Shown one piece after another: positions 53 to 19,014 of a DNA stretch of 64,000 nt. Where the stretch lies: NCBI RefSeq assembly GCF_004959935.1, contig NZ_SMYN01000014.1, positions 1-64,000 of the forward strand, written 5' to 3'. The notes under the pieces are model-generated. The model was not told the origin of the DNA. It saw only the letters and a list, made by a program, of their open reading frames with translations, and ran no database searches. The translations under genes and the position numbers were made by a program. Position 1 is the stretch's first letter; each line of letters begins with the position of its first letter. Origin of the DNA: Falsirhodobacter xinxiangensis (GTDB lineage Bacteria; Pseudomonadota; Alphaproteobacteria; Rhodobacterales; Rhodobacteraceae).

Positions 53-721
53 CTAGGACATTTCGATCACGTATCCGAAGCCTCGGACATTGCGGATCAG
101 ACGTATCTTGGAGTGGCCATCCACTTTCTTTCGCAAATAGGCGATATAGACCTCTACCAGATTGGTGTTGGGATCGAAGCTTTTTCCCCACACGCCAGAC
201 AGGATCTCCATCCGGTTGACGATGGTCCCCGGCCGCTCGGCCAGAAACCGGAGCAACGCGAATTCGGTGGGGGTCAGCCCGAGGTCGCGGCCTGCGCGAC
301 GGGCGCTCTTGTGCGACAGATCAAGTGTCAGATCGCCGATCGTGATCTCTTCCTGACGGGCGCCGGTGCGACGCAGCAGCGTCTCGATGCGGGCCAACAG
401 CTCCTCGAAGGCAAAGGGTTTCGTGATGTAGTCATCGGCACCCGCGCGCAGCCCTTCCAGCTTCTCCTCCAGCGTGTCACGCGCGGTAAGCATGAGGATC
501 AGGACGCCCGCATCCTTGCTGCGCAGGTCGGCGCAAATCTCGGCTCCTTCGCCGTCGGGCAACATGCGGTCGAGGATGACCAGCGGCCAGGCGCGATCCG
601 CCATGGCGGCCCGCATCTCGACGAAGCTTGACACGCGGTGGGGGGTATACCCTTCGACCTCCAGCCCTTTCTTCAGAAACTCGGCGATGCCGGCGTCATC
701 CTCGACGATCAGGATATCCAA
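53..721 (-). CDS. OmpR-family response regulator
   Basis: DNA-binding response regulator, about 222 aa. The receiver domain has the acidic pocket ED at residues 7-9, phospho-acceptor Asp51 (ILDRMLPDG), Thr79 (LTA) and Lys101 (ITKPF). The C-terminal winged helix (about 125-222) ends with the usual R-x-V-R-G-x-G-Y motif. I chose a TTG start at 721 because the receiver fold begins immediately there; an upstream in-frame start would lie deep inside the kinase gene. It overlaps the 3' end of the histidine kinase gene by 13 bp, so the two are translationally coupled partners. Targets are unknown; the divergent glycosyltransferase operon is the obvious candidate by position only. Confidence 0.9.
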   Translation of the reverse strand: MDILIVEDDAGIAEFLKKGLEVEGYTPHRVSSFVEMRAAMADRAWPLVILDRMLPDGEGAEICADLRSKDAGVLILMLTARDTLEEKLEGLRAGADDYITKPFAFEELLARIETLLRRTGARQEEITIGDLTLDLSHKSARRAGRDLGLTPTEFALLRFLAERPGTIVNRMEILSGVWGKSFDPNTNLVEVYIAYLRKKVDGHSKIRLIRNVRGFGYVIEMS

Positions 722-2322
722 GTTGCGGCTCCTTTGACGACAGGCAGTGTGATCTCGACCCGGGCACCAGCCGGCGCCTTGCCAATCGCGATCTGCCCGC
801 CATGCTGTTCCACGATCCACCTTGCGATGGGCAGGCCCAGACCTGCGCCGCGGCGCGCTGCGCTGGTCTTGCCGCGATAGAACCGCTCGAACACCCGGTC
901 GCCGTCCTCGGGGGAAAAACCTTCGCCCTGATCGCTGACGGTCAGGACGGCATTCCCGTCCACCTCGCGCAGGTCGAGCGTTACGGCACTGGCTTCGGGC
1001 GCGTGGCTCAGCGCATTGTCCAGAACGATGACGACAGTCTGGCGGATGCGGTCGGGATCGGCGTGAAGCATCACCGGCTCCGATGGTTGGTGCAGGCTGA
1101 TCGTCACGTCCCGCTCGCGCGTGAGGGGGCCGCCATCCAGGATGACCTCGGCCAGCACTTCCTGCATCATCGTCTCGCGGAAGGAAAAGTCGATGACCCC
1201 AGCCTCGGACCGCGCGAGGAAAAGAAGATCGTCGACCAGCCGCGACATCTGTCCGACGCGCCGCACGATCTGATCCATGGTCCCGCGGAAATCGGCCACG
1301 CTTGCCTGCGGCTGGCGCAGTGCCACCTCGGCCTGACCACGGATCACGGTCAGCGGCGTGCGCAATTCATGGCTGACATCGGCAAAGAACTGGGTGCGCG
1401 TTTCGTTGATCCGGGTCAGGCGCGCGTTCGCGGCCTCCAGTTCCGCGGTGCGGCGGCTGAGGCTGGCGGTGCGCTCGGCCACCTCCAGCGCAAGCAGATC
1501 GCGATTGGCGCGCAGTTCGGTCTGCTGCTTGCCGATCTGTTCTGCCATTTCGTCGAACCGCTCGGCCAGATGGCCCAGCTCGTCGCCCCCGCGGCTGCGC
1601 TTGGCCCGCCCCACGCGCCCGCTTGCAAGATCGTCCACCGCGTCCGCCAGCGACGCGATGGGCCGCGAGACGACCCTGTCCATCACCAACGCATTTCCCA
1701 CCGCCAGTGCGGTGCCGACCACGACCGCGCTGATCGCCAGAAAGCGCAGCAGTTCGGTCTGGCGGTCCCAGCGATCGATGGCGTCCAGAACCCGACGTTC
1801 GTCCGCCGCGGTCGCCGCACGCATCATTCCCGAAATCTCGTCGTCCAGCCCATCTTCGACACGTTCGGCATAGAGGGTGCGCGCCTCGTCGATCTCGCCG
1901 CTCGCAAGAAGGACGGCCACCCGGTTCGCGACCCCTCCCAGTTCCGCACTCCGGATCTTTATATCGCCGATCCAGCGCAGCATCTCCTCCTCGCGCCGCC
2001 TTTGGGATTCACTGCGAGCGTTGGCGATCTCATCGCGCAGGCTATCCTCCAGATCGCTCAGCCGTGCCAGCAGTCCCGAGGATACCTCGCCCACTTCCTG
2101 CTGCCCCGAGAGCCCGACGCTGAACAGTTCCGCGATCTGTTCCGACATGCGGTTGGTATCCGAGTTCAGTTCGTTCAGCTGACGCAGATGTTCGTAGCTT
2201 TCCTCCAGCAGACGTCGGTTCCGGTCGGTCGTCTCCAGCGCGACGAGGATGAAGCTGCAGATCACCGTCACGCAAAGCGCAAGGATGCCATGGCTGGCCA
2301 GAAGCTTGCTGCGGATTTTCAT
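709..2322 (-). CDS. Membrane sensor histidine kinase
   Basis: Two-component sensor kinase, 537 aa. An N-terminal membrane segment (about 10-29) is followed by a helical periplasmic region, a second membrane segment (about 193-216), HAMP linker and coiled coil, then the dimerisation domain with H-box FFADVSHELRTPL (phospho-acceptor about His318). The ATPase domain shows the N-box (DNALSHA), DQGEGF and GAGLGLPIA. The periplasmic sensor looks like a four-helix-bundle type by its charged helical pattern, which is an inference. The gene precedes and overlaps the response regulator. It is divergent from the glycosyltransferase operon, with a 237 bp shared upstream region. The signal sensed cannot be read from the sequence. 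Confidence 0.92.
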   Translation of the reverse strand: MKIRSKLLASHGILALCVTVICSFILVALETTDRNRRLLEESYEHLRQLNELNSDTNRMSEQIAELFSVGLSGQQEVGEVSSGLLARLSDLEDSLRDEIANARSESQRRREEEMLRWIGDIKIRSAELGGVANRVAVLLASGEIDEARTLYAERVEDGLDDEISGMMRAATAADERRVLDAIDRWDRQTELLRFLAISAVVVGTALAVGNALVMDRVVSRPIASLADAVDDLASGRVGRAKRSRGGDELGHLAERFDEMAEQIGKQQTELRANRDLLALEVAERTASLSRRTAELEAANARLTRINETRTQFFADVSHELRTPLTVIRGQAEVALRQPQASVADFRGTMDQIVRRVGQMSRLVDDLLFLARSEAGVIDFSFRETMMQEVLAEVILDGGPLTRERDVTISLHQPSEPVMLHADPDRIRQTVVIVLDNALSHAPEASAVTLDLREVDGNAVLTVSDQGEGFSPEDGDRVFERFYRGKTSAARRGAGLGLPIARWIVEQHGGQIAIGKAPAGARVEITLPVVKGAATWIS

Positions 2323-2392
2323 GATCGCCCCCGTTTTGTGCAGGATAGGCGGATTGTCGGCGGCCTCCAGCCCGGATGTGACAGTCTCGTAA

Positions 2393-2432
2393 ACTTCTAA
2401 TTTGAAGCCTTGCGCATTCGACTTCATTTGAA
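2393..2432. promoter_or_regulatory. Repeated TTTGAA elements in a divergent promoter region
   Basis: The gap between the sensor kinase and the first glycosyltransferase holds two similar elements, each an ACTTC half followed by TTTGAA: one at 2393-2407 and one at 2421-2432. The TTTGAA units are 26 bp apart. They could be sites for the neighbouring response regulator. This rests only on repetition and position. Confidence 0.25.
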
Positions 2433-2559
2433 AGGCAGGCCGATGCCGCACCTGCATCCGGCCCGTTCGCAAAAATGTCACATTGCGGCAAGGTCCGATG
2501 GAATAACCCCTCCGCTGGGCCGTTAGCTTCGAAATCAACAAGCTTCGGGGAGCGAAAAG

Positions 2560-3765
2560 ATGAGGCATCAGGCCTTCGACACCGCAGGTTCCACCCGCCA
2601 GAAACGGGTCGTATTGTATTCGCACGACACGTTGGGGTTCGGGCATTTGCGCCGCAACATGCTGCTGGCCGGCGCGCTCAAACGGATGGACCCGGCGCCG
2701 GACGTTCTGATGATCGCGGGCATGCAGGAGGCGGGCGCCTTCAACCTGCCCGAAGGCGTCGATGTGCTGACCCTGCCTGCCTATGGCAAGCGCAGCGACG
2801 GCAGCTATCACGCCCGCAGCCTCGGGCTGGACCTGCGCGATCTGGCGCGGCTGCGGTCCGATACGATCAAGGGCGCGCTTCTGGCCTATGACCCCGATCT
2901 TGTGATCGTGGACAACGTGCCGAGGGGGGCGCAGTCGGAGCTTGACCGCCCACTGGCCGCCCTTCGCAAACGGGGCCGTGCCAAGATCGTGCTGGGCCTG
3001 CGCGACGTGATCGACACAGCTGAAACCGTCCGCGCTCAATGGCTGCTGCGCCGCAATTTCGCGGCGCTCCGCGATTGGTTCGACGAGGTCTGGATCTATG
3101 GCGATCCTGCATTCTTCGATCTGGTCAGCGAATATGCGTTCGGTGACGAATTCGCGGCCAAGGCACATTTCCTGGGATATCTGGACCAGCGCGCGCGGCT
3201 GTATGGCGCGGCCCCGGTCGATGCGCCAGCCGACCCCTATATCCTTTGCGCAGTGGGCGGGGGCCGCGACGGGGCCGCGCTGTGCCGCGCCTTTGCGGAT
3301 TCGACACTGCCCGCCGGCCATCGCGGCATCATCCTGACGGGCACGCAGATGCCCGCCGCCGCCCGCACCTATATCGAGGCCCGCGTTGCGGCGCGGCCGG
3401 ATATGGAACTGGTGGATTTCCTGCCCGAACCCCTGCCGCTGATGCAGGGGGCCGCGCGGATCATCGCGATGGGTGGCTACAACACCGTGACCGAGGCGCT
3501 GTCCCTGCGCCGCCCCACGCTGATCGTGCCGCGCACCAAACCGCGGCTGGAGCAGCTTTTGCGCGCCGAACGGCTGGCGGCCAAGGGGGCGATCGGGATG
3601 ATCCTGCCGGACCACCTGACCCCCGCCACGCTGTCGAAATGGATGGCCGGCCCGCCGCCAAGCGCGGGGCTTGGCCAGTCGATGCTGGACATGGGCGGCC
3701 TTGACCGGATGCAATCCCGCGCCGCGCTTCTGCTGAACCAATCGGTGCTGGAGGTCGTCGCATGA
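2560..3765 (+). CDS. GT28/MurG-like predicted glycosyltransferase (COG4671 type)
   Basis: Cytoplasmic glycosyltransferase of GT-B fold, 401 aa. The N-terminal motif LGFGHLRRN (about residues 25-33) is the acceptor-side signature of the MurG-like predicted glycosyltransferases. The C-terminal half carries MGGYNTVTEAL (about 303-313) followed by the basic segment typical of GT28 nucleotide-sugar binding. No signal peptide or membrane segment is evident. It is the first gene of a five-gene coupled operon; its stop overlaps the next start (ATGA at 3762). The donor sugar and acceptor are unknown. The neighbours (two GT4 enzymes and an exporter) point to glycan or glycolipid assembly. Confidence 0.82.
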   Translation: MRHQAFDTAGSTRQKRVVLYSHDTLGFGHLRRNMLLAGALKRMDPAPDVLMIAGMQEAGAFNLPEGVDVLTLPAYGKRSDGSYHARSLGLDLRDLARLRSDTIKGALLAYDPDLVIVDNVPRGAQSELDRPLAALRKRGRAKIVLGLRDVIDTAETVRAQWLLRRNFAALRDWFDEVWIYGDPAFFDLVSEYAFGDEFAAKAHFLGYLDQRARLYGAAPVDAPADPYILCAVGGGRDGAALCRAFADSTLPAGHRGIILTGTQMPAAARTYIEARVAARPDMELVDFLPEPLPLMQGAARIIAMGGYNTVTEALSLRRPTLIVPRTKPRLEQLLRAERLAAKGAIGMILPDHLTPATLSKWMAGPPPSAGLGQSMLDMGGLDRMQSRAALLLNQSVLEVVA

Positions 3766-4949
3766 CCATCGGTTACGTCGTCAAACGCTATCCCCGCTTT
3801 TCGGAAACCTTCGTGGTGAACGAAATCCTCGCCCACGAAGCGGCCGGGGCGAAACTGGAAATCTTCGCACTTCGCTCGGTCGAGGAGACGCATTTCCAGA
3901 ACATCATCTCTCGTGTGCGCGCCCCGGTGACCCGCATCCCCGACCGGATCAAGGGCATCGACGAAAGCTGGCCGCAGCTTGCCGCCGCGCAGACCTTGCC
4001 GAACGCCTGGCAACGGCTGACGGAATTTCCCGAAGCGTCGGGACGGGACGTCATTCAGGCTGTGCGTCTGGCAGTCGAATGCCGCGACCGGGGCGTGACG
4101 CATCTGCATGCGCATTTCGGCACCGTCGCTTCGACCGTGGCGCGGATCGCGGCCCGGCTGGCGGGGATCACATGGTCGATGACCCTGCATGCCAAGGACA
4201 TCTTCATGGACTATGCCGAGAACAGGAACCTTGCGCTGAAGATCGCGGATGCGGGCGCCGTCGTCACGGTGTCCGATTTCAACCGCAGCTATCTGGCGGA
4301 CCGTTTCGGGCGGGACGTGACGCGCATCTACAATGGCATGGACCTTGCGGGCTTCCAGTGGCAAGCGCCCCGCGAGGATGCGACCGAGATCGTCGCCGTG
4401 GGCCGGTTGGTCGAAAAAAAGGGCTTCCACATTCTGATCGAGGCGCTGCGCATCCTGCAGTCCGAAGGCTGCACTCCGCCCACCCGCATTATCGGTGGGG
4501 GCGAGATGCAGGCCGAACTTGCCGCGCAGATCGAGGCGTCGGGGCTGGATCACGTCACGTTGGCCGGACCCATGCCGCAATCCGACGTGATCGCGGCGAT
4601 GCGCGGCGCTGCGATGCTGGCGTGTCCCTGCATCGTCGGCGATGACGGCAACCGTGACGGCATGCCGACCGTGCTGCTGGAGGCGATGGCCCTCGGCTGC
4701 CCCGTCGTCGCCACCCCCGTGACCGGCATCCCGGAACTGGTCGACGGCACCACCGGCTTGCTGGCGGGTGAGGGCGACGCCGCATCGCTCGCCGAATCCA
4801 TCGCCCGGCTGCTGAAAGACCCCGCCCTGCGCGACCGCCAATCCCGCGCCGCCCGCGCGCGGATCGAGGCCGATTATGACGTCACCCACAGCGCCGCCGC
4901 GCTGCGCGACCTGTTCGACGGGTTGCGGGCCATGCGGGGGGCCGCGTGA
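3762..4949 (+). CDS. GT4-family glycosyltransferase
   Basis: GT-B glycosyltransferase, 395 aa. The N-terminal half begins YVVKRYPRFSETFVVNEI, a pattern common in colanic-acid/exopolysaccharide GT4 enzymes. The C-terminal half has VGRLVEKKGF and the donor-binding segment LLEAMALGCPVVAT followed by TGIPELV. Its start overlaps the upstream stop (ATGA), and its stop region overlaps the next start, so three glycosyltransferases are translationally coupled. Probably transfers a sugar from an NDP donor during assembly of a surface glycoconjugate. The product is not identifiable. Confidence 0.87.
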   Translation: MTIGYVVKRYPRFSETFVVNEILAHEAAGAKLEIFALRSVEETHFQNIISRVRAPVTRIPDRIKGIDESWPQLAAAQTLPNAWQRLTEFPEASGRDVIQAVRLAVECRDRGVTHLHAHFGTVASTVARIAARLAGITWSMTLHAKDIFMDYAENRNLALKIADAGAVVTVSDFNRSYLADRFGRDVTRIYNGMDLAGFQWQAPREDATEIVAVGRLVEKKGFHILIEALRILQSEGCTPPTRIIGGGEMQAELAAQIEASGLDHVTLAGPMPQSDVIAAMRGAAMLACPCIVGDDGNRDGMPTVLLEAMALGCPVVATPVTGIPELVDGTTGLLAGEGDAASLAESIARLLKDPALRDRQSRAARARIEADYDVTHSAAALRDLFDGLRAMRGAA

Positions 4950-6034
4950 TGCGTATCGCCTATGTCTCGATGGACCCCGGCATCCCGGTCTTCGGCACCA
5001 AGGGCGCATCCATCCACGTTCAATCCATGGTCCGGGCGTTTCTTGCCCTTGGCGCAGAGGTCACGCTGATCTCTCCGCGGACCGAAGGAACGCCGATGCC
5101 CGTCCGCGTGGTCTCCATTCCGGTCACTGGCAGCGGCGCCGAACGAACGGATGCACTTCTGGCCGCGAACCGAACATTGGCAGACGTGCTTGCCGATGAG
5201 GGGCCATTCGATCTGATCTATGAACGCCATGCGCTCTATGCCCATGCGGCAACCGAATTTGCTGCGGCGCATGCGATCCCCTCGGTGCTGGAGATCAACG
5301 CCCCGCTGATCGAGGAGCAGTCCCGCCACCGCACCTTGACCCATCCGGCACAGGCGAATGACACGGCACGGCGCAGCCTGTCCGCCGCCACCGCGGTGGT
5401 CGCGGTCAGCGCTGCCGTTGCCGAATATGCCCGTGGCCATGGCGCAAAACGCGTCGAGGTGATCCCCAACGCCATCGACCCCGCCCGACAGGCGCTGCCG
5501 CATGTGCCGGGGCCGTTCACCGTTGGCTTCCTTGGGTCCCTGCGCCCCTGGCATGACATCGGCGTGTTGCTGGATGCGGTGGCGATCCTGCAAACGCGGA
5601 TCCCTGCGCACCTGCTGATCATCGGCGACGGGCCGGACCGCGAACGTCTGGCCCCCCGGCTGACCGCCATCGGCGCCGAGGTGACGGGGATGGTTCCCCA
5701 TTCGGATCTGGCGCAGCATTTGGCGCGGCTGGATGTCGCTGTTGCGCCCTATTCGGCGTCCCAGCCGTTCTATTTCTCGCCCTTGAAGCTGTTCGACTAC
5801 ATGGGCGCGGCGCTGCCCATCGTCGCCAGCCGGGTCGGCGATCTGGAAGATCTGCTGCAAGGCCACGGTGTGATGTGCGAGCCGGACGATCCGCAGGCAC
5901 TGGCCGATGTGCTGGAACGGCTGGCGGGGGATGCGGCGCTGCGGGCCGACCTTGGCCGGGCCGCGCGGGCGCATGTCATGGCGCATCACACCTGGGACCG
6001 CGTGGCGCAAAAGGTGCTGGAGCTGGCGGCATGA
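4946..6034 (+). CDS. GT4-family glycosyltransferase
   Basis: Second GT4-type enzyme, 362 aa. The N-terminus shows the KGASIHVQ motif (acceptor side). The C-terminal Rossmann half has FLGSLRPWHDI and FSPLKLFDYMGAALPIVAS, the donor-binding signature with Asp in the place often held by Glu. No membrane segments. Start ATG at 4946 overlaps the preceding stop; the exporter start at 6031 overlaps its own stop. Its role beside the other two transferases suggests at least a trisaccharide-like product, which is an inference from gene count. Confidence 0.87.
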   Translation: MMRIAYVSMDPGIPVFGTKGASIHVQSMVRAFLALGAEVTLISPRTEGTPMPVRVVSIPVTGSGAERTDALLAANRTLADVLADEGPFDLIYERHALYAHAATEFAAAHAIPSVLEINAPLIEEQSRHRTLTHPAQANDTARRSLSAATAVVAVSAAVAEYARGHGAKRVEVIPNAIDPARQALPHVPGPFTVGFLGSLRPWHDIGVLLDAVAILQTRIPAHLLIIGDGPDRERLAPRLTAIGAEVTGMVPHSDLAQHLARLDVAVAPYSASQPFYFSPLKLFDYMGAALPIVASRVGDLEDLLQGHGVMCEPDDPQALADVLERLAGDAALRADLGRAARAHVMAHHTWDRVAQKVLELAA

Positions 6035-7779
6035 CCCTCCTGCACCGTTTCCGCCCCTATATGCGGGGCGAGGGGTTGGTTTTGACCGGCGGCATGACCG
6101 CCCTGATCGCCGCCACCGCCATGAAACTGCTGGAGCCGTGGCCGCTGAAATTCGTGGTGGATTCCGTGCTGCGCGTCGGCACGCCGACCGACGCCACCAC
6201 CGTCATCGCCCTTTGCGCGGGGGCACTGGTTGCCATCACGGCCCTGCGGGCGGTCTTCCAGTTCATCGCGACGACGGTGTTTTCGCTGGTCGGCGGGCGG
6301 GTGCTGACGCGCGTGCGGTCCGACCTGTTCGCCCATGTGCAGCGCCTTTCGGCGGACTTCCACGAGAAATCGCGGGCAGGTGACATCACCCTGCGGCTGG
6401 TCGGCGATGTCGGGATGCTGAAGGACACGGCGGTCACGGCCACGCTGCCATTGCTGGGCAACGTGCTGGTGCTGGCGGGGATGATCGGCGTGATGCTGTG
6501 GCTGGACTGGCGGCTGGCGCTGGTGGCACTGGTACCGCTGCCGCTGTTGTGGCTGGCGACACGCCGCGTCAGCGCAAGGATCGGTCGGGCCAGCCGCGCC
6601 CAGCGCAAGCGCGAGGGCGCAATCGCCGCCACTGCGGGCGAGGCGCTGGCCGGTATGCGCGCCATTCAGGCGCTTGGGCTGGAGGGCGCGGTCAGCCGCA
6701 TGTTCTCGGGCGCGAACGAGCGCAGCCTGACGGACGGCGTGCGCTCGGGCAGGCTGTCCGCGGCGTTGGAGCGGATGGTGGATGCGATGGTCGGCCTCGC
6801 CACCGCCGCGATCCTGTGGTTCGGGGCACATGCGGTGATCTCGGGGCGTCTGACCCCCGGAGAGCTGCTGGTCTTTCTGACCTACCTCAAGAACACCTTC
6901 CGCCCGGTGCGCGAATACGCAAAATATTCGGGCCGCTTGGCCAAAGCGACGGCGGCGGGCGAACGTGTGTTCGATCTGCTGGATCAGGTGCCGACCGTCC
7001 GCAACCGCGAGGGTGCCGTGGCCGCGCCCGCCTTCAAGGGCGAGATCGCGTTTCACGACGTGCAGTTCGGATATGGCGAGGCGCGGGTGCTGTCGGGTCT
7101 GGACCTGACCATCCCCGCAGGCCAGCGCGTCGCGGTCACGGGGCCGTCGGGGATCGGCAAATCGACGCTGCTGACGCTGCTGCTTCGTCTGCGCGATCCG
7201 TCCTCGGGCGCGATCACCGTGGATGGCACCGACATCGGCGCTGTCACGCTGGCCTCGCTTCGCAGCCAGATCAGCTTCGTTGCGCAGGAGCCGCTGCTGT
7301 TTTCGACCACCATCGCAGAGAACATCGCCCTTGGCGCGGGCGAGGTCACGCGGGCCGAGATCGAAGCCGCCGCGCGCCTGGCGGACGCCCATGGCTTCAT
7401 CGCGTCATTGCCGGATGGGTATGACACGGTGGTTTCCGAACGGGGCGCGAACTTCTCGGCGGGTCAGCGGCAGCGGCTGGCGATCGCGCGGGCGGCGCTG
7501 CGGCAGTCCCCGATCCTGATGATGGACGAGCCGACCGCCGGATTGGACAGCGCCAGCGAGGATGCCGTGGCCGATGCCATAGACGCGCTGGCCGAAGGGC
7601 GCACGACACTGCTGGTCACGCATAACCTGTCGCTGGCGGCGCGGATGGACAGGATCATCCTGCTGCATGACGGCAAGCTGGCCGAGGACGGCACCCATGC
7701 CGACCTGCTGGCCAGGGGCGGGAAATATGCAGCACTTTGGCGGCTGCAACAGGGCGGAGGGCTGCGCGATGCAGGCTGA
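6031..7779 (+). CDS. ABC exporter, fused membrane and ATPase domains
   Basis: Half-transporter of the MsbA/lipid-exporter type, 582 aa. The N-terminal six-helix membrane domain (about 1-310) is followed by an ATPase domain with Walker A GPSGIGKST (about 371-379), signature FSAGQRQR (a variant of LSGGQ) and Walker B ILMMDEPTAGLD. Such proteins dimerise and flip lipid-linked or amphipathic substrates out of the cytoplasm. It is coupled by ATGA to the upstream glycosyltransferase, and its 3' end overlaps the next gene by 11 bp. Likely exports the glycolipid or glycan made by the operon. A drug-type substrate cannot be excluded. Confidence 0.9.
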   Translation: MTLLHRFRPYMRGEGLVLTGGMTALIAATAMKLLEPWPLKFVVDSVLRVGTPTDATTVIALCAGALVAITALRAVFQFIATTVFSLVGGRVLTRVRSDLFAHVQRLSADFHEKSRAGDITLRLVGDVGMLKDTAVTATLPLLGNVLVLAGMIGVMLWLDWRLALVALVPLPLLWLATRRVSARIGRASRAQRKREGAIAATAGEALAGMRAIQALGLEGAVSRMFSGANERSLTDGVRSGRLSAALERMVDAMVGLATAAILWFGAHAVISGRLTPGELLVFLTYLKNTFRPVREYAKYSGRLAKATAAGERVFDLLDQVPTVRNREGAVAAPAFKGEIAFHDVQFGYGEARVLSGLDLTIPAGQRVAVTGPSGIGKSTLLTLLLRLRDPSSGAITVDGTDIGAVTLASLRSQISFVAQEPLLFSTTIAENIALGAGEVTRAEIEAAARLADAHGFIASLPDGYDTVVSERGANFSAGQRQRLAIARAALRQSPILMMDEPTAGLDSASEDAVADAIDALAEGRTTLLVTHNLSLAARMDRIILLHDGKLAEDGTHADLLARGGKYAALWRLQQGGGLRDAG

Positions 7780-9679
7780 TGCAGAGATCGTGGCACGCGA
7801 TCCCGCGCTGCCCGCCCTTGCGCTGGTGCTGGATGCCGAAGCCGTGTCGGCCCTGTTGGGCAAGGCTGCGGCCCCCGTGCATCTGCGCTATAAGCCCGGT
7901 GTCAGCTGTATGGCGACCTTTCGCACCGACGAGGGTTTCGTCATCCTCCGCGCCCTGACCCGCGAAAGATTCGCCGAGGACGAAATGAGCCCGCGCCGCG
8001 CCGCCCTTTCGCAGTTCATTCCCGATCTTGCGCTGATCGTGATGCCTGTCGAGGCAGACCGCCGCATCACCGCATTGCGCAAACGGTTCGATCTTTCCGG
8101 TGCCACACCACTCCGGTTCAAACCCGAACGCCGGATCGTTCTGCGCCAGGGCGACACGATGATAAAGGCGATGTCCAAGGCGACGTGGGATCGCGCCCGT
8201 CTTGGAGCCGCATTCGGCGCATCCATGGGCGGCCCCGCCGTCCTGTCGGTGGACGAGCGGCACCATGTGATCCGCACCGAATGGCTGGCAGGCTCCAGCG
8301 CCGAACAGTCCCCCGAGGTCTTTCACCGGATCGGCGCAAAACTGGCCGCCCTTCATCGCAGCCATGCCGATCTTCCGATCCTGAAGCCGGTCCGTCCCCC
8401 TGCGGCTTTGAAGGATCTGGCGGTGCTTTTGCCCGATCTTGCGCCGCAGATCCGCCGCCTGTCGAAACTGCTGGACCAATCGTTGCGGGACGGGCCGTCC
8501 GTGCCGTGCCATGGCGATTTCAGTGCCGATCAGGTGATGGTCGCGGATGATATTGCTTTCGTCGATTGGGATGAGGCTGGCATGGGTGATCCTGCCCGGG
8601 ACTTGGGCAGTTTCCTCGCGCGGCTGGACCATGATGGAGCGCCCGGGCACCATGCCTTCCTGCAGGGCTACGGCCCCTTGCCCGCAGGCGTTGCGGCGCA
8701 TCATGCCGCCGCGCTTGCCGCCCTTGCGACCGAAGGGTTCCGCAATCGCAGGCCGGATTGGCCGGAGCTTGCCCGCCGTGTTCTGGACCGGGTCGAGCAG
8801 ATACTGACCGCGCCCGACATCGTGGAACAGGCAGCCGATCCCAAGATCGTCGCGCGGCTTTCCGGGCAGCCGATCAGAACGGCGGCGATGATCCGTTCGA
8901 AACCCGGCAAGCGCGCACTGTTCCGCTATGACACCGACACCGCGGCAATGGTGGGCAAGCTGCGGATCAAGGGCGCGGACCTGCGCACACCCGCCTTGCA
9001 CACCAGACTGCGACAGGCGGGGCTGGACGGCACCGGCGATACCGGAGTTCCGAGCCTGCTGGGCCGCGTGGATCCGCTGAACCTCTGGCTGCAGGATCTT
9101 GTCCCCGGTTCGCTCCTGACCGAGATGATCGGACCCAAAGGGCCTTGCGAGCCGTTTCATGCGACTGGCCGGTCGCTGGCCCGACTGCACCGCTCGGGTG
9201 TCCGGGCCGAGCGGGAATGGACCCCCGAGGACGAGGCGGAGGTGCTGCGCAAAGCCGTCGCCCGAATGCCCGAGGCGAGCGGTGTCGTCGAAGCGTTGAT
9301 CGCCCGGATGCTTGCGGCAGACAGAGAGGTAGCGACGATCCACCGCGATTTCTATCCCGACCAGGTGCTGATCGACGGCGCCCGTGTGTGGCTTCTGGAT
9401 CTGGACCTTTACGCGAATGGCGACCCGGCGGTGGATACCGGCAATTTCCTCGCCCATCTGGATGAACACGCAATCCGGCACGGGTGGAATCCCGCAAGCC
9501 TGTCGCATCAGGCGGCGGCGTTCGTTGCCGGATACGCCACGCTTCATGCCGTCCCCGCCAACACCGACTTGCTGCGCGCCATCTCGGTCGCCCGCCATAT
9601 CGGCATCGCGAGCACGTTTCCCGACAGGCGGCATACACCGCCGGCGATCCTCGCGCATTTGCAGGCCACGCTCTCTTAA
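7769..9679 (+). CDS. Tandem APH/choline-kinase-fold phosphotransferase-like protein
   Basis: 636 aa cytoplasmic protein that appears to hold two kinase-like domains in tandem. The first has HGDFSADQVMV (about residue 247) and VDWDEAGMGDPARDLG. The second has HRDFYPDQVLI (about 525) and LDLDLYANGDPAVDTG. These are the Brenner catalytic loop and metal-binding Asp of the aminoglycoside phosphotransferase (APH)/choline kinase superfamily. Both sets retain the catalytic Asp, so both copies may be active. Start ATG 7769 lies inside the exporter gene. The substrate is unknown; genomic context favours phosphorylation of a sugar, amino alcohol or lipid head group rather than antibiotic resistance. Confidence 0.82.
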   Translation: MQADAEIVARDPALPALALVLDAEAVSALLGKAAAPVHLRYKPGVSCMATFRTDEGFVILRALTRERFAEDEMSPRRAALSQFIPDLALIVMPVEADRRITALRKRFDLSGATPLRFKPERRIVLRQGDTMIKAMSKATWDRARLGAAFGASMGGPAVLSVDERHHVIRTEWLAGSSAEQSPEVFHRIGAKLAALHRSHADLPILKPVRPPAALKDLAVLLPDLAPQIRRLSKLLDQSLRDGPSVPCHGDFSADQVMVADDIAFVDWDEAGMGDPARDLGSFLARLDHDGAPGHHAFLQGYGPLPAGVAAHHAAALAALATEGFRNRRPDWPELARRVLDRVEQILTAPDIVEQAADPKIVARLSGQPIRTAAMIRSKPGKRALFRYDTDTAAMVGKLRIKGADLRTPALHTRLRQAGLDGTGDTGVPSLLGRVDPLNLWLQDLVPGSLLTEMIGPKGPCEPFHATGRSLARLHRSGVRAEREWTPEDEAEVLRKAVARMPEASGVVEALIARMLAADREVATIHRDFYPDQVLIDGARVWLLDLDLYANGDPAVDTGNFLAHLDEHAIRHGWNPASLSHQAAAFVAGYATLHAVPANTDLLRAISVARHIGIASTFPDRRHTPPAILAHLQATLS

Positions 9680-9694
9680 CCCCAAGGAAAAACG

Positions 9695-10681
9695 ATGAAG
9701 TATCTGCTGTCCGCCGCCGTGATCGGCGCAGCCATCCCAAGCCTCGCCTATGCCGAGGTGGAGCTGTCTGGGGATGCGCGCATGGGCGTCGTGTATGACG
9801 GCGCCGATATGCAATTCTCCCAGCGTCTGCGCCTGCGCTTCACCTTGTCGGGGGAAACAGATGACGGCCTTGAATTCGGCGCGACCTTTCGCGCGCATGA
9901 CGCCGAGGGGGCGGAACAAGGCGGAGCCTTCGGCGCCTCCGATGACGACAAGGCCGGGCATGTCTGGATTTCGGGCGCATTCGGCGAATTGAAGATGGGC
10001 GATGTGGATTCCGCCGCAGAAGAGGCGTTCGGCAACCTGTCCCGTATCGGGTTCACCGGCCTCGATGATCCGCATGACATCCCTTACATCAACGGTGACG
10101 GCGCGGATACGCTCGATCAGGGGCCGGGTGTGGTCTATGGTTATGCGACGGACCGTTTCGAAGTCCATTTTGGAGTAACCGATGGCAGCGGCCCCCGCGA
10201 CGAGACGGAGGAGGTCGATGGTGCAGAGCGGGCCTTCAGGCGAGATGTGACGTATTCCGTCGCAACGGCCGTGTCGGGCGACGACTATAAGGTTGGTCTT
10301 GCCTATCTCGACAACGGCGATGCCGAGGGGAACAACGACGCCTATGGCGGCAGCCAATGGATCGCATATGCCGCCTTCGAGGTGGCGGGCTGGTCAGTCA
10401 AAGCGTTCCATTCCGACTTTCAGGACGGCGCCATGGGCTTGAACCGGTCGAGCGGGCTTTCAGCCGACTACTCTTTCGATGCGATCGAGCTGACCTTGTT
10501 TGCCCGCAGGGATGGGCTGCACGAGTCCGCCGGCAATGTGGGCGGTCATCACGAGTTTCTGGGCATCGGGGCCGGCTATGACCTTGGCGGCGATGCTGTG
10601 CTGCGAGGCGGGGTCATGCATTCCGACACAGGCGCTTACGAAGAAACGATCGCCGATCTTGGACTAGAGCTGGACTTTTGA
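9695..10681 (+). CDS. Outer-membrane porin, Rhodobacter type
   Basis: 328 aa. A signal peptide (about residues 1-20, ending LAYA) is followed by EVELSGDARMGVVYD, the typical first strand of Rhodobacter/Paracoccus general porins. Alternating hydrophobic strands continue to a C-terminal Phe (LELDF), the outer-membrane assembly signal. An acidic insertion resembles the constriction loop L3. Forms a trimeric diffusion pore. It starts 15 bp after the tandem-kinase gene, with an AAGGA ribosome site just before ATG, so it is probably co-transcribed with the glycan operon. Confidence 0.9.
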   Translation: MKYLLSAAVIGAAIPSLAYAEVELSGDARMGVVYDGADMQFSQRLRLRFTLSGETDDGLEFGATFRAHDAEGAEQGGAFGASDDDKAGHVWISGAFGELKMGDVDSAAEEAFGNLSRIGFTGLDDPHDIPYINGDGADTLDQGPGVVYGYATDRFEVHFGVTDGSGPRDETEEVDGAERAFRRDVTYSVATAVSGDDYKVGLAYLDNGDAEGNNDAYGGSQWIAYAAFEVAGWSVKAFHSDFQDGAMGLNRSSGLSADYSFDAIELTLFARRDGLHESAGNVGGHHEFLGIGAGYDLGGDAVLRGGVMHSDTGAYEETIADLGLELDF

Positions 10682-12290: not shown

Positions 12291-12338
12291 GCAAGATCAT
12301 TATAGATCGCCATGGCAACAACAGGGACGGGATGATAC

Positions 12339-13841
12339 TTGCGCGTCGCATTCGCCGGATTTCTTCACGAAAGTAACAGCTTCGCCTCTGCACCCGCAGA
12401 CATTCGCGCCTTCGAACAGGGAGGCGGTTATATCCCCATGACCCGGGGGGCCGCGCTGAGAGAGGCGATCCGCGGCGTAAATCTCGGGATGGCAGGTGCC
12501 TTCGATTTTGCGGAACGCGCAGGTTGGGACGCGGTGCCGATCCTGTGGGCGGGGGCAATTCCATCGGCTCCTGTGACCGCAACTGCCTATGAGGCGATCG
12601 CGTCCGAAATCCTGCAGGGGCTGGCGGACGCAGGGCCGTTCGACGCCATCTATCTGGATCTTCACGGCGCAATGATCGCGGAACATGTCGACGACGGCGA
12701 GGGCGAGTTGTTGGAACGCATCCGCCGCCTTTATCCAGATGTGCCGCTGGCCTGTTCGCTCGACCTGCACGGCAACATCACCCCGCGCATGTTCGAACTC
12801 AGTGACATCATGGTCGGGTTCCGAACCTATCCGCATGTGGACATGGCCGAAACCGGCAGCCGCGCGGCGGAGGCGCTGGACGGGATGGTGCGCTCTGGGC
12901 GGCGCTGGGCAAAGGCGATGCGTCGGATCGATTACCTGATCCCGATCAGCTGGCAGTATACCGGCATGGAGCCTGCAAAAGAGCTTTATGCGGCCACGCA
13001 TGTCTTGCCCGAGGGCGTGGCCACCGCTTCCATCTTCATGGGGTTTCCGGCAGCAGATTTCGATGGCTGCGGACCCGCCGTATTTGCCTATGGCCCGGAT
13101 GCGGACTCGGTCGAGGCCCATGCCGACGCGATGGAGGCTGCGCTGCTGGGTTGCGAGCGCGACTTCAACGGAGAGGCGCATGCGCCGGAGGATGCCGTGC
13201 GGCTTGCGATGCGGCTGGCGCAGGATGCAGGCCGCCCCGTGATCATCGCCGACACGCAGGACAATCCCGGCGCGGGCGGCTCCTCCGACACGACAGGTAT
13301 GCTTCGGGCGCTTGTGGCCTGCGGGGCGCAAGGCGCGGCGCTGGGCAATTTCCACGACCCCGAAGCTGCGCGCGCTGCTCATGCGGCTGGGATCGGCGCC
13401 CAGATCCGGATCGCGCTGGGCGGGCGTTCGGGAGTTGCGGGGGACGAAGCGTACGAGGTGGACGCGGTCGTCGCGGCACTGTCGGACGGAAAGGTTCATG
13501 CAACCGGTCCCTATTACGGCGGCACGCATATCGACATGGGGCCATCTGCGGCCCTATCGATCGGCGGCACGAGTGTCGTCGTCACCAGCCACGTCGCGCA
13601 GATGGCGGACCGGAACTTCTACCGCATGGTCGGCATCGACCCGGAGGATCAGGCGATCCTCGTGAACAAGAGCTCGGTGCATTTCCGCGCCGATTTCGAG
13701 CCGATTGCGGAAACCATCCTCGTGGCGACCGCTCCCGGCGCCATGCCGCTCTGCCCCTCGTCGCTGCCCTGGACGAAGCTGCGGCGGGAAATGCGTGTCC
13801 GGCCTATGGGCCCGGCCTTCGGACATGCCGACAACCAATGA
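12339..13841 (+). CDS. M81 metallopeptidase, MlrC-like
   Basis: 500 aa, the full length of the MlrC family. The N-terminus FLHESNSFASAPADIRAF, the LDLHGAMIAE and SLDLHGNIT segments and ADTQDNPGAGGSSDT in the second half are hallmark MlrC motifs, with His and Asp residues likely to bind zinc. MlrC of sphingomonads cleaves the linear microcystin tetrapeptide; most homologues have unknown amide or peptide substrates. Start is TTG at 12339, preceded by GGACGGG and giving the canonical MRVAFAGFLHE-type N-terminus. First gene of an eight-gene operon. Confidence 0.88.
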   Translation: MRVAFAGFLHESNSFASAPADIRAFEQGGGYIPMTRGAALREAIRGVNLGMAGAFDFAERAGWDAVPILWAGAIPSAPVTATAYEAIASEILQGLADAGPFDAIYLDLHGAMIAEHVDDGEGELLERIRRLYPDVPLACSLDLHGNITPRMFELSDIMVGFRTYPHVDMAETGSRAAEALDGMVRSGRRWAKAMRRIDYLIPISWQYTGMEPAKELYAATHVLPEGVATASIFMGFPAADFDGCGPAVFAYGPDADSVEAHADAMEAALLGCERDFNGEAHAPEDAVRLAMRLAQDAGRPVIIADTQDNPGAGGSSDTTGMLRALVACGAQGAALGNFHDPEAARAAHAAGIGAQIRIALGGRSGVAGDEAYEVDAVVAALSDGKVHATGPYYGGTHIDMGPSAALSIGGTSVVVTSHVAQMADRNFYRMVGIDPEDQAILVNKSSVHFRADFEPIAETILVATAPGAMPLCPSSLPWTKLRREMRVRPMGPAFGHADNQ

Positions 13842-13870
13842 GCCCAACCCACAGAGAGAGAAGACATCAG

Positions 13871-15457
13871 ATGAATAATTCCGTGATGCTTTCGTTCAAG
13901 CGCGGACTCGTCGCCTCGGTGCTGGCGCTGACCGCGGGCGGGGCGCTGGCAGAAACCACCGTGACTGCGGTCATGCATTCGGATCTGCGCGTGCTCGATC
14001 CGGTGATCACCACCGCCCACATCACCCGCGATCATGCCTATATGATCTATGACGTGCTGGTGGCCGAGGATGCGAATGGCGAGATCAAGCCGCAGATGGC
14101 CGATTTCACCGTTTCGGACGATCTGCTGACCTATACGTTCACCTTGCGCGACGGGCTTGCCTTTCATGACGGCGCACCGGTCACAGCGGAGGATGTAGTC
14201 GCCTCGCTGACGCGCTGGGGCAAGCGCGACACGGGTGGTCAGCTTTTGATGGATGTGACCGAATCCGTCACGGCAAGCGATGAGAAGACCGTCGTCTGGA
14301 CCCTGCGCGAGCCTTTCGGCGCCTTCCTCGCGACCATCGGCAAACCGTCGGCCGTTCCGCCCTTCATCATGCCGAAGCGCATTGCAGAGACGCCGGTGGA
14401 GCAGTCGATCGCCGAGCATATCGGCTCCGGCCCGTTCCGGTTCGTCCCCGAGGAGTTCCAGCCCGGCGTCGGCGTGACCTATGCCAAGAACGAGGATTAC
14501 GTTCCGCGGGACGAGCCGGCTTCGGGCTATGCGGGCGGCAAGGTCGTGAACGTGGACAAGGTGCGTTGGGTCACCATGTCCGACAGCATGACGGCGGTGA
14601 ACGCGCTCCAATCTGGTGACATCGACCTGATCGAGTCCATGCCGGTCGATCTGATCCCGCTGCTGGAAGGCGACGATACTGTCACGGTCGAACAGCGGTC
14701 CCCGTTCGGGTTTCAGACGATGGGCCGGATGAACTTCAAGTATCCGCCTTTCGACAACCCGCAGATTCGCAAGGCGGCACTTATGGCGATGTCGCAGGAG
14801 CCTGTTCTGGCCGCGCTGATGGGCGATCCGGCCTATTACAAGGTCTGCGGTGCGATCTTTGGCTGCGGCACGCGGTTCGAGACCACGACTGGAACCGACA
14901 CCCTGACCGCCGCGGGCGATCCCGAGGGGGCGAAGGCTCTGCTGGCCGAGGCTGGGTATGACGGCACCCCGGTCGTGCTCATGCAGCCGACGGACGGGCC
15001 GACCCTGCGCGCACAGCCCGTCGTCGCAGCGCAGCAGCTTCGTGCGGCAGGCTTCAACGTCGACATGCAGCCGATGGACTGGCAGACGCTGGTCACGCGG
15101 CGCGCCTCGCAGGCTGCTCCGGCCGAAGGTGGCTGGAACATGTTCTTCACCAACTGGGAAATCTCGGAAATCTCCAACCCTGTGATCAGCGTCATGCTGA
15201 ACGGTCGTGGGGATCAGGCGTGGTTCGGCTGGCCGGACGATCCCGAAGTCGAGGCGCTGAAGAAGGAATTCATCGCCGCCAGCACGCCCGAGGATCAGAA
15301 GGCAGTGACCGACAAGATTCAGGCCCATGCGATGGAAACCGTCAGCTATGTGCCGCTTGGCGAATACAACTTTCCGCAGGCGCGCCGCACGGTGCTGACC
15401 GACATGCAGCCGACCTCTGTGCCGGTGTTCTGGGGTATGTCGAAAACCGAGGAGTGA
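13871..15457 (+). CDS. Peptide-type ABC transporter substrate-binding protein
   Basis: 528 aa SBP_bac_5 family protein. A Sec signal peptide (cleavage after GGALA, about residue 27) precedes a mature region with DLRVLDP, the FHDGAPVTAEDVVASLTRW segment and the usual two-lobed layout. Delivers its ligand to the DppBC-like permeases encoded next. Starts 29 bp after the MlrC gene, with an AGAGAGAGA purine stretch upstream. Family members bind dipeptides, oligopeptides, glutathione or other amides; the ligand is probably an acylated or modified peptide, given the downstream hydrolases. Confidence 0.92.
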   Translation: MNNSVMLSFKRGLVASVLALTAGGALAETTVTAVMHSDLRVLDPVITTAHITRDHAYMIYDVLVAEDANGEIKPQMADFTVSDDLLTYTFTLRDGLAFHDGAPVTAEDVVASLTRWGKRDTGGQLLMDVTESVTASDEKTVVWTLREPFGAFLATIGKPSAVPPFIMPKRIAETPVEQSIAEHIGSGPFRFVPEEFQPGVGVTYAKNEDYVPRDEPASGYAGGKVVNVDKVRWVTMSDSMTAVNALQSGDIDLIESMPVDLIPLLEGDDTVTVEQRSPFGFQTMGRMNFKYPPFDNPQIRKAALMAMSQEPVLAALMGDPAYYKVCGAIFGCGTRFETTTGTDTLTAAGDPEGAKALLAEAGYDGTPVVLMQPTDGPTLRAQPVVAAQQLRAAGFNVDMQPMDWQTLVTRRASQAAPAEGGWNMFFTNWEISEISNPVISVMLNGRGDQAWFGWPDDPEVEALKKEFIAASTPEDQKAVTDKIQAHAMETVSYVPLGEYNFPQARRTVLTDMQPTSVPVFWGMSKTEE

Positions 15458-15521
15458 TCTTCGCCTCATGCGCCCTTCGGGGCGCATGGCCGCCTGAAAT
15501 ACGGTCCTGCGGAGCCATGCC

Positions 15522-16463
15522 ATGTTCATCTATCTTCTGAAACGGGTCCTGTCGGTGCTGCCGGTCCTGTTTCTTGTGTCCGTCTTCGTCTTCCTGATGC
15601 TGCGCCTCACGCCCGGCGATCCGGCGGCGATCATCGCGGGCGACAACGCGACCCCCGAAACCCTTGCCGCCATCCGCGACGCGATGGGACTGAACGAGCC
15701 GCTGCTCACGCAATACGCATCGTGGATCACCGGTATTCTGGGCGGGGATTTCGGCAATTCGCTCATCTCGGGGGTGCCGGTGCTGGATCTGGTCGCACAG
15801 CGCGTGGGGCCGTCCATCTCGCTCGCGCTCATGACGATCATCATCGCCATTTTCGTCGCGATCCCGATGGGCGTGATCGCGGCGTGGCGGCATCGCAGCT
15901 GGATCGACTACCTCGTGATGTCCTTTTCTGTCCTTGGCTTCTCGGTGCCGGTGTTTCTGGTTGGCTATGTGCTGCTGCTGATCTTTTCGGTCCAGCTGGG
16001 CTGGCTGCCGCCGCAGGGGTTCAAGCCGATCGCGGACGGGCTGGGACCATTCCTCGAACGGGCGATCCTGCCCGCGTTGACGCTGGCCTCGATCTATATC
16101 GCGCTGATCGCACGGATGACGCGGGCCGCGATGCTGGACGTGCTGAACGAGGATTACATCCGGACCGCCCGTGCCAAAGGTGTGGGAGAGCAGCGTCTGC
16201 TGTTCGTCCATGCCCTGAAGAATGCCGCGGTGCCCATCGTCACAATCGTCGGCGCGGGTTTCGCGCTGCTGATCTCGGGCGTGGTGGTGACCGAGACGAT
16301 CTTCAACATCCCCGGCATCGGCCGCTTGACCGTGGATGCAGTGCTGGCCCGCGACTATCCGGTGATCCAGGCGCTGATCCTGCTGACCGCGACACTTTAC
16401 GTGCTGATCAACCTAGCGATCGACATGTCCTATTCCCTGTTCGATCCGAGGATCCGCTACTGA
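15522..16463 (+). CDS. ABC transporter permease, DppB type
   Basis: 313 aa inner-membrane permease with about six transmembrane helices. The N-terminus MFIYLLKRVLSVLPVL and LTPGDPA are typical of DppB/GsiC. The cytoplasmic EAA loop DYIRTARAKGVGEQ contacts the ATPase. It follows the binding-protein gene by 64 bp and shares a TGATG junction with the next permease, so the stop and start overlap by one base. Confidence 0.93.
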   Translation: MFIYLLKRVLSVLPVLFLVSVFVFLMLRLTPGDPAAIIAGDNATPETLAAIRDAMGLNEPLLTQYASWITGILGGDFGNSLISGVPVLDLVAQRVGPSISLALMTIIIAIFVAIPMGVIAAWRHRSWIDYLVMSFSVLGFSVPVFLVGYVLLLIFSVQLGWLPPQGFKPIADGLGPFLERAILPALTLASIYIALIARMTRAAMLDVLNEDYIRTARAKGVGEQRLLFVHALKNAAVPIVTIVGAGFALLISGVVVTETIFNIPGIGRLTVDAVLARDYPVIQALILLTATLYVLINLAIDMSYSLFDPRIRY

Positions 16464-17344
16464 TGGCCATTGATCGTTCCGCGGCGGACAAGCCGTTCCT
16501 GTTGCGCCTTCTGTCCGGCATCTCGCCCAGATCCACGGGGCTCGGGCCGTTCATTGCCGCATTCATGCTGTTGGCCGTGATCGGGCTGACCGTGTTCTCG
16601 CCGTGGATCGCCACGCATGATCCGTTGGCGATGGACCCGCTGATGCGGCTGAAGCCTCCGTCCGAGGCGCATCTTCTGGGGACCGACGGCTATGGGCGCG
16701 ACCTGTTCTCGCGCATGATCCTCGGGGGGCGCATCTCGCTGATGATCGGGGTTTGCGCAGCGGTTGTCGCGCTGGGCCTCGGCATTCTGATCGGATTGCT
16801 GGCGGGGTATTTCCGCGCCGCCGATGCGGTGATCATGCGGGCGATGGATGCGCTGATGGCGATGCCGTCGATCCTGATCGCCATCGCGCTGGTGGCGCTG
16901 AACGGGCCGTCCATCGGCTCGGTCGTCATGGCGATCACCATCCCCGAAATCCCGCGCGTCGTCCGTCTGGTCCGGTCGGTCGTTCTGACCGTGCGAGAGG
17001 AGCCCTATGTGGAGGCGGCGACCGCGCTCGGGTCGTCCACCGCCAAGATCCTGTTCCGGCATCTGCTGCCCAACACCATGGCACCGATGATCGTTCAGGG
17101 CACCTACATCATCGCATCCGCAATCCTTACCGAGGCGCTGCTGTCCTTCCTTGGTGCGGGCATCAGCACCGAAATCCCGACCTGGGGCAACATCATGGCC
17201 GAGGGGCGGCAGTTCTTCCGCATCACACCCGGGATCATCCTCTGGCCCGGCCTTCTGCTGACGATCTGCGTGCTGTCCATCAACTTGATCGGCGACGCCG
17301 CCCGCGACGGGCTGGACCCGCGCATGAAGAAACGCGAGGCATGA
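16463..17344 (+). CDS. ABC transporter permease, DppC type
   Basis: 293 aa inner-membrane permease, partner of the preceding DppB-type subunit. It has an N-terminal helix, the LGTDGYGRDLFSRM segment characteristic of DppC/OppC, and the EAA loop YVEAATALGSSTAKI. ATG at 16463 overlaps the upstream stop. The ATPase gene starts two bases after its own stop codon. Confidence 0.93.
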   Translation: MAIDRSAADKPFLLRLLSGISPRSTGLGPFIAAFMLLAVIGLTVFSPWIATHDPLAMDPLMRLKPPSEAHLLGTDGYGRDLFSRMILGGRISLMIGVCAAVVALGLGILIGLLAGYFRAADAVIMRAMDALMAMPSILIAIALVALNGPSIGSVVMAITIPEIPRVVRLVRSVVLTVREEPYVEAATALGSSTAKILFRHLLPNTMAPMIVQGTYIIASAILTEALLSFLGAGISTEIPTWGNIMAEGRQFFRITPGIILWPGLLLTICVLSINLIGDAARDGLDPRMKKREA

Positions 17345-17345
17345 C

Positions 17346-19004: not shown

Positions 19005-19014
19005 GGAGGGTGGA

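Follow-up and report, generated by a model that had tools for sequence, protein, structure and literature searches.

We analysed a window of 64,000 nucleotides from Falsirhodobacter xinxiangensis (contig NZ_SMYN01000014.1, positions 1 to 64,000 of the forward strand), which carries an operon for three glycosyltransferases (GTs), an ATP-binding cassette (ABC) exporter and a tandem kinase of the aminoglycoside phosphotransferase (APH) fold. These five genes probably form a conserved module for the assembly and export of a glycan on which the kinase acts. Our best reading is that a type IV ABC exporter serves a pathway whose product is an oligosaccharide or short polysaccharide, phosphorylated and acidic. 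An earlier note on this DNA took the five genes for one unit, and this is borne out by a gene order kept across phyla, by correlated gene trees and by conserved catalytic residues in the kinase.

Order, distribution and inheritance of the five genes

The five reading frames, in the order GT28, GT4a, GT4b, exporter and kinase, overlap by 4, 4, 4 and 11 bases in the window (Table 1), just as the note had them joined by overlapping start and stop codons; the exporter start at 6031 is an internal ATG within a longer open reading frame (ORF). For the six plus-strand genes (these five and a porin), Pfam and NCBIfam matches were consistent with the family names already given to them, and no NCBIfam model listed reached its curated cut-off for any of the six (among the best 25 of 184 matches for the exporter and the best 25 of 28 for GT4a).

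The kinase alone was used to fetch loci from 84,980 species genomes, by two peptide patterns and an alignment from four Rhodobacterales kinases, a search that misses divergent kinases. The scan gave 79 loci (from the best 80 of 100 confirmed). Homology mapping found the exact order and strand (GT28+ GT4a+ GT4b+ ABC+ APHb+) in 65 of the 79, and because the neighbours were not used in fetching the loci, linkage is fairly tested by this count. The other loci fall into (i) seven at contig ends, with the kinase only or the exporter and kinase (L058, L081, L087, L090, L095, L119, L127), (ii) two in which GT28 was undetected (L091 and L118, the latter at a contig end), (iii) three rearranged loci with GT28 undetected (L121, L128, L131), (iv) one with all five genes in a different order (L101) and (v) one with GT28 reversed and neither GT4 detected (L132). 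A neighbourhood search in Rhodobacterales had been proposed earlier; the genes lie together and in order beyond the strain, and their range is much wider than Rhodobacterales. A strain-specific oddity was rejected, since the set is conserved across phyla.

By record titles, the hosts are Alpha-, Beta- and Gammaproteobacteria, Planctomycetota, Cyanobacteria, Gemmatimonadota, Myxococcales, Actinobacteria and one archaeon. The exact order occurs in Rhodobacterales, Enterobacter, Serratia, Planctomycetota, Nostocales, Gemmatimonadota, Actinobacteria and Ca. Methanoperedens. Several loci are contigs of metagenome-assembled genomes (MAGs) and may reflect contamination, as may the archaeal one (Ca. 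Methanoperedens nitroreducens, a contig of 721,326 bases). Among relatives of the window's host the set is patchy, with the full kinase in about 2% of the family's genera. Two of 61 near genomes carry it in full (the window's own and that of Cereibacter flavus, of the same genus), and eight of the 61 give any match at E 0.001. The family sample gave 12 matches in 394 at 1e-20, nine of them full-length. Any match at 1e-8 was seen in 3 of 385 in the class sample, and the kinase was matched in 3 of 398 in the phylum sample; in each, the own genome alone has it in full.

Sets on plasmids were found in Paracoccus aestuarii, Pseudorhodobacter turbinis and ten Escherichia records (GT28 and both kinases). 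A megablast search placed the set in 18 of 5,426 complete E. coli genomes, every one on a plasmid, and the carriers were isolated from cattle, food, crow, pig and people. Two of the E. coli plasmid records read GT28, GT4, GT4, ABC, APH, a second phosphotransferase, an "alginate export family protein" and a nucleotide-sugar dehydrogenase. E. coli sets adjoin insertion-sequence genes (L055 and L056; L055 was typed IncFIA/IncFIB).

Among the 67 loci with all five genes, pairwise gene-tree distances correlated for all ten gene pairs (r 0.71-0.90), and 0 of 200 permutations reached the observed correlation for any pair. This shows co-inheritance rather than mechanism. The five genes are under purifying selection when compared with C. 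flavus, at nonsynonymous rates (dN) of 0.11-0.32 and synonymous rates (dS) of 0.61-1.05 (dN/dS about 0.15-0.30). The kinase evolves fastest in this comparison, with 62% identity against 80-85% for the others.

The tandem kinase, the glycosyltransferases and the exporter

The kinase matched PF01636 in two stretches (84 bits; gathering cut-off 23.2). It consists of an orphan N-lobe (amino acids 1-110; window 7769-8098), kinase 1 (109-345) and kinase 2 (362-636); in profile comparisons the two kinase halves matched each other with a probability of 99.9%, and the orphan third N-lobe matched the first N-lobe with 92%. The H-x-D and D-x-D motifs are invariant in both domains of all 29 aligned tandem proteins. 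Among 83 kinase loci (the window, L053-L055 and L057-L135), the second kinase was found in 80 and both kinases in 45. A regular-expression scan found the full catalytic motif in 73 of these 80 second kinases and 38 of the 45 first kinases, and the exceptions retain H-x-D save L130, where none was found in the piece used.

The AlphaFold model of the kinase (mean predicted local distance difference test, pLDDT, 94.4) matched the small-molecule kinase fold in Foldseek and VIA-align 2, the latter for the second domain only. LxmK was the best fold match (Z 22.0, root-mean-square deviation 3.2, 275 residues aligned); AmiN (Z 19.5), homoserine kinase, maltokinase, choline kinase and antibiotic kinases also matched. 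Because LxmK, AmiN and the homoserine, malto- and choline kinases are near-tied, the substrate cannot be read off the fold. The best NCBIfam match was the LxmK class V lanthionine synthetase kinase as well (NF038156), at 68.2 bits against a cut-off of 315. Database records label the genes merely glycosyltransferases, ABC transporter and "aminoglycoside phosphotransferase", and the last label, also carried by one kinase gene of the E. coli plasmid set, invites misreading as drug resistance. Aminoglycoside resistance was considered and rejected: the kinase sits in a conserved glycan operon, and resistance APH models match it weakly, under their cut-offs.

The GT28-like protein scored 27.9 bits against PF04101, above the gathering cut-off of 22, and its nearest solved sequence by profile is MurG (1f0k). 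Its predicted model (pLDDT 91.3) has a UDP-glycosyltransferase (UGT)/GtfD-type fold (Z 28.7) and matches many UGTs, one of them a sterol glucosyltransferase. For GT4a, EpsE was the best and WcaL the next NCBIfam model, each below its cut-off (among the best 25 of 28 matches). One GT28 clade with a support of 0.97 takes in 67 of the 71 GT28s of the system (L084, L093, L101 and L120 fall outside) and is separate from an alphaproteobacterial cluster at loci L040-L050. GT28 alone had matches in 15 of the 61 near genomes, with at most 40% identity outside its own genus, and nine of these, placed by the locus of their best match, are part of another cluster.

The L040-L050 cluster has the order GT28, GT4, GT4, His_Phos, GT28'. 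Its first two GTs are homologous to those of the window (about 32-39% and 31-36% identity), whereas the kinase has no match there and the GT28s lie outside the main clade of the system. At L040 the cluster also comes with a nucleotide-sugar dehydrogenase and a methyltransferase, and at L048 an ABC-exporter-like gene stands beside it.

The exporter fell below the equivalog cut-off of every characterised relative compared: MsbA lipid A exporter (TIGR02203; 415.3 bits against 602), a glucan exporter (NF010178; 307.3 against 733), the HepA heterocyst exporter (NF045513; 334.8 against 725) and the PglK flippase (NF050066; 150.4 against 1000), and it scored 240 bits against the 585.4 cut-off of a second glucan-exporter model. 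Its best sequence match in the PDB is the phosphatidylcholine translocator ABCB4. The Pfam scan found no other transporter among the five core genes. The earlier statement that no flippase is present needs qualifying, since exporters of the type IV ABC class can act as flippases themselves. Anti-phage defence was rejected as a role for the set, the PADLOC match being confined to the exporter, within its ATPase part.

The outward step, neighbouring genes and regulation

The porin starts 15 bases past the kinase stop codon, and a sensor kinase and regulator face the operon divergently across 237 bases between the two starts; both features, which had been described before, agree with the window coordinates and Pfam (Table 1). 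The porin is unmatched in the 20-kb C. flavus locus and in four plasmid loci, and a paralogue 60% identical to it lies elsewhere in the genome; we accordingly rejected it as a fixed operon member. The porin matches Porin_4 (PF13609) only and not Alginate_exp (PF13372), whereas the E. coli counterpart barrel scores 84.1 bits against the Alginate_exp cut-off of 25.2. The window porin is best taken as an optional gene next to the set, one that may fill the role of the barrels at other loci.

Table 1. Features of the window; positions are counted from its first base.
Feature	Position	Strand	Basis
GT28/MurG-like GT-B glycosyltransferase	2560..3765	+	PF04101; profile, predicted model
GT4 glycosyltransferase a	3762..4949	+	PF00534/PF13439
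GT4 glycosyltransferase b	4946..6034	+	PF00534/PF13439
Half-transporter of a type IV ABC exporter (MsbA/ABCB-like) with fused membrane and ATPase domains	6031..7779	+	PF00664+PF00005
Tandem APH-fold kinase	7769..9679	+	PF01636, two stretches
Kinase domain 1 (HGDFSADQ ... DWD)	8093..8803	+	motifs, predicted model
Kinase domain 2 (HRDFYPDQ ... DLD)	8852..9676	+	motifs, predicted model
Porin_4 outer-membrane porin, optional, outside conserved core	9695..10681	+	PF13609
OmpR-family response regulator (Response_reg + Trans_reg_C), start uncertain	~53..712	-	Pfam
Sensor histidine kinase (HAMP, HisKA, HATPase_c), points away from operon	709..2322	-	Pfam
Divergent intergenic region, promoters presumed	2323..2559	.	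coordinates

In 66 loci the downstream ORF was chosen mechanically as the first long plus-strand ORF past the kinase, and 62 of these were scanned (L053, L081, L087 and L090 were left out); the picks in Rhodobacterales are unreliable, and where GC content is high some are probably shadow frames. By Pfam, 21 of the 62 matched OprB, 7 Alginate_exp and 1, that of the window, Porin_4. No locus is shared by the OprB and Alginate_exp groups: OprB is the cyanobacterial downstream family, and the Alginate_exp hosts are E. coli, Enterobacter, Serratia, Lampropedia, Acidiferrobacterales, Competibacteraceae and one unclassified MAG. Weaker barrel-like matches were to OMP_b-brl (15) and Autotransporter (8), both of which may coincide with OprB matches, and to SlipAM (2), below the cut-off in the two inspected. 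At L062 an OmpG-like porin follows the kinase. Barrels of differing Pfam families thus occupy the same position after the kinase, and in several loci (L077, L109, L110, L112 and L130 among them) the barrel ORF overlaps the kinase stop by 4-8 bases. In C. flavus (L057, 11957-14020) the operon is directly followed by a sucrose-phosphate synthase/phosphatase fusion; a link to sucrose was rejected, since the phosphatase part had no match above 50 bits in the other loci examined.

A sensor kinase and regulator stand divergently upstream in 12 of the 79 loci, with sensor-kinase scores of at least 284 bits, and do so on the Paracoccus aestuarii plasmid. A nucleotide-sugar dehydrogenase is joined to the set in E. 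coli and L128, an epimerase in L061. In four planctomycete loci (L074, L076, L079, L080) a gene of the sulfotransferase family, scanned in one of them and assigned by clustering in the rest, lies between exporter and kinase, a hint that the product there is sulfated. Together the dehydrogenase, epimerase and sulfotransferase neighbours point to an acidic glycan. Elsewhere, the genome from which the window comes encodes a nucleotide-sugar dehydrogenase and three Bac_transf (PF02397) proteins, so that in this host primers and precursors could come in trans. Of 18 non-core families found near at least four loci, 15 were scanned (families 14, 19 and 21 were left out); apart from those named above, they seem to be restricted to a lineage or to have no relation to the set (TRAP transporter, DNA methylase, RecO, major facilitator superfamily, sigma factor). 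Five Nostoc-type loci have two further GT4 genes nearby. Farther along the window, a peptide-ABC/M81/M20 region (12330-22849) is about 79.5% identical to a stretch of a Paracoccus alcaliphilus plasmid.

A proposed route, its rivals and known systems

From the families and positions above we propose the following route. The MurG-like GT and the two GT4s would build a short oligo- or polysaccharide at the cytoplasmic face of the inner membrane. The APH-fold kinase or kinases, by analogy with WbdD and Klebsiella O7, would phosphorylate the growing or finished glycan; plausibly the phosphate caps the chain end and so halts elongation or clears the glycan for export. Transport over the inner membrane would fall to the type IV ABC exporter, and an outer-membrane barrel that many diderms recruited locally may pass the product outwards. 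In many Rhodobacterales the divergent two-component system probably controls expression. The earlier proposal that a glycan is made, phosphorylated and exported fits the unit, its catalytic residues and the barrel, dehydrogenase, epimerase and sulfotransferase neighbours; we can only infer the substrate of the kinase and the state of the product, free or lipid-linked.

Several observations weigh against this route. The Pfam scan found no priming enzyme or polymerase in the five-gene set and no methyltransferase with the kinase (APH is the only match in 7667-9676, and none was found among the five genes). Judged on the predicted model, the APH fold gives no substrate for the kinase. Nostocales loci have the second kinase only, so the tandem is not essential. 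Among the 25 of 58 families listed, a barrel directly after the kinase was identified in Rhodobacterales only in the window and L062. Finally, host relatedness lies partly behind the correlation of the gene trees.

We regard as unlikely, on balance, that the set is instead a glycolipid pathway, in which the GTs decorate a diacylglycerol, sterol-like or polyprenol lipid, the kinase phosphorylates it and the exporter flips it as MsbA does lipid A-core. The profile match of GT28 to MurG, the sterol glucosyltransferase among the many UGTs matched by its model and an ABCB/MsbA-like exporter closest to ABCB4 all suit such a pathway, whereas the recurrent Alginate_exp and OprB barrels after the kinase suit a soluble glycan better and the exporter stays far under the MsbA equivalog cut-off (415 against 602). 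It also seems rather unlikely that the kinases supply a precursor, such as a sugar-1-phosphate or other small-molecule phosphate, and do not modify the glycan: no pyrophosphorylase or nucleotidyltransferase occurs in the 15 of 18 recurrent neighbour families scanned, and the kinase is placed after the exporter in 65 of 79 loci, although maltokinase, N-acetylhexosamine 1-kinase and the choline kinase LicA have the same fold.

An osmoregulated periplasmic glucan of the NdvA/ChvA kind would account for the exporter and GTs, and the exporter is of the same class (307 and 240 bits with the glucan-exporter models). These scores are far under the cut-offs (733 and 585.4), the set contains no cyclic glucan synthase, the barrels suggest secretion and the set also occurs in Actinobacteria and an archaeon, all of which make this reading very improbable. 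Fainter still is the prospect of a RiPP-like product (ribosomally synthesised and post-translationally modified peptide) from an LxmK-type kinase, glycosyltransferases and exporter. LxmK is the best NCBIfam and fold match of the kinase, but its score is 68.2 bits against 315, and no LxmK-type partner enzyme was identified among the recurrent neighbours (ORFs of at least 80 residues; a smaller precursor gene is possible).

The glycan route set out above, if true, means that Nostoc, marine Rhodobacterales, planctomycetes and plasmid-bearing E. coli share an unannotated phosphorylated surface-glycan route, and the set is of a size that could be transferred to a laboratory host, which makes product and mechanism directly testable. 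More tentatively, it is possible that this is an ancient, horizontally moving glycan-secretion route beside Wzx/Wzy, Wzm/Wzt and synthase, in which three GT-B enzymes assemble a short chain, an APH-fold kinase caps it and so gates the type IV ABC exporter, and different diderm lineages have recruited outer-membrane barrels of their own.

The earlier note recognised no described pathway of this composition, and this stands as far as the open-licence full-text literature was searched, with subscription journals outside the scope: the searches brought up no paper recognisable as an account of the set, and no NCBIfam model listed fits any of its genes at the cut-off. None of four terms searched for occurs in a paper on Shiga toxin-producing E. 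coli strain RM9088 (PMC10562709), and passages of PMC12419801 and PMC6513891 were not relevant to the set. A survey of cyanobacterial exopolysaccharide export works with Kps/Wzm-Wzt and alginate- or cellulose-type components; by term search it names no OprB, kinase, phosphotransferase or MsbA, and it leaves room for "additional transport mechanisms" (PMC4594306).

The exporters NdvA/ChvA, PglK, HepA and MsbA share the PF00664+PF00005 architecture with that of the window, which misses their NCBIfam cut-offs by a wide margin, and their partner genes differ. Classic ABC-dependent O-antigen export uses a separate permease and ATPase, Wzm and Wzt, whereas the window exporter is one fused PF00664+PF00005 protein. 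The sets of E. coli, Enterobacter, Serratia and Lampropedia end in an Alginate_exp barrel, as in alginate export through AlgE (PF13372), but alginate synthase is absent from the five-gene set and the window has Porin_4 instead.

The closest likeness in principle is to WbdD of E. coli O9a and ORF6 of Klebsiella O7, where GTs assemble the glycan in the cytoplasm, a kinase acts on it and an ABC transporter exports it, as proposed for the window. WbdD phosphorylates the O9a chain end (PMC3482155), and the Klebsiella O7 kinase domain matched AmiN, an APH-fold enzyme like the window kinase, with mutation showing that it is needed to phosphorylate a repeat-unit mimic (PMC11231755). Both have a methyltransferase partner, whereas the window set has none and its kinase is free-standing and often tandem. 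Because the exporter class differs and the methyltransferase is absent, the likeness is limited to the principle. We read the set as a form of ABC-exporter-dependent glycan secretion, not previously described as far as we searched, for which the WbdD/O7 analogy offers a working principle and not membership.

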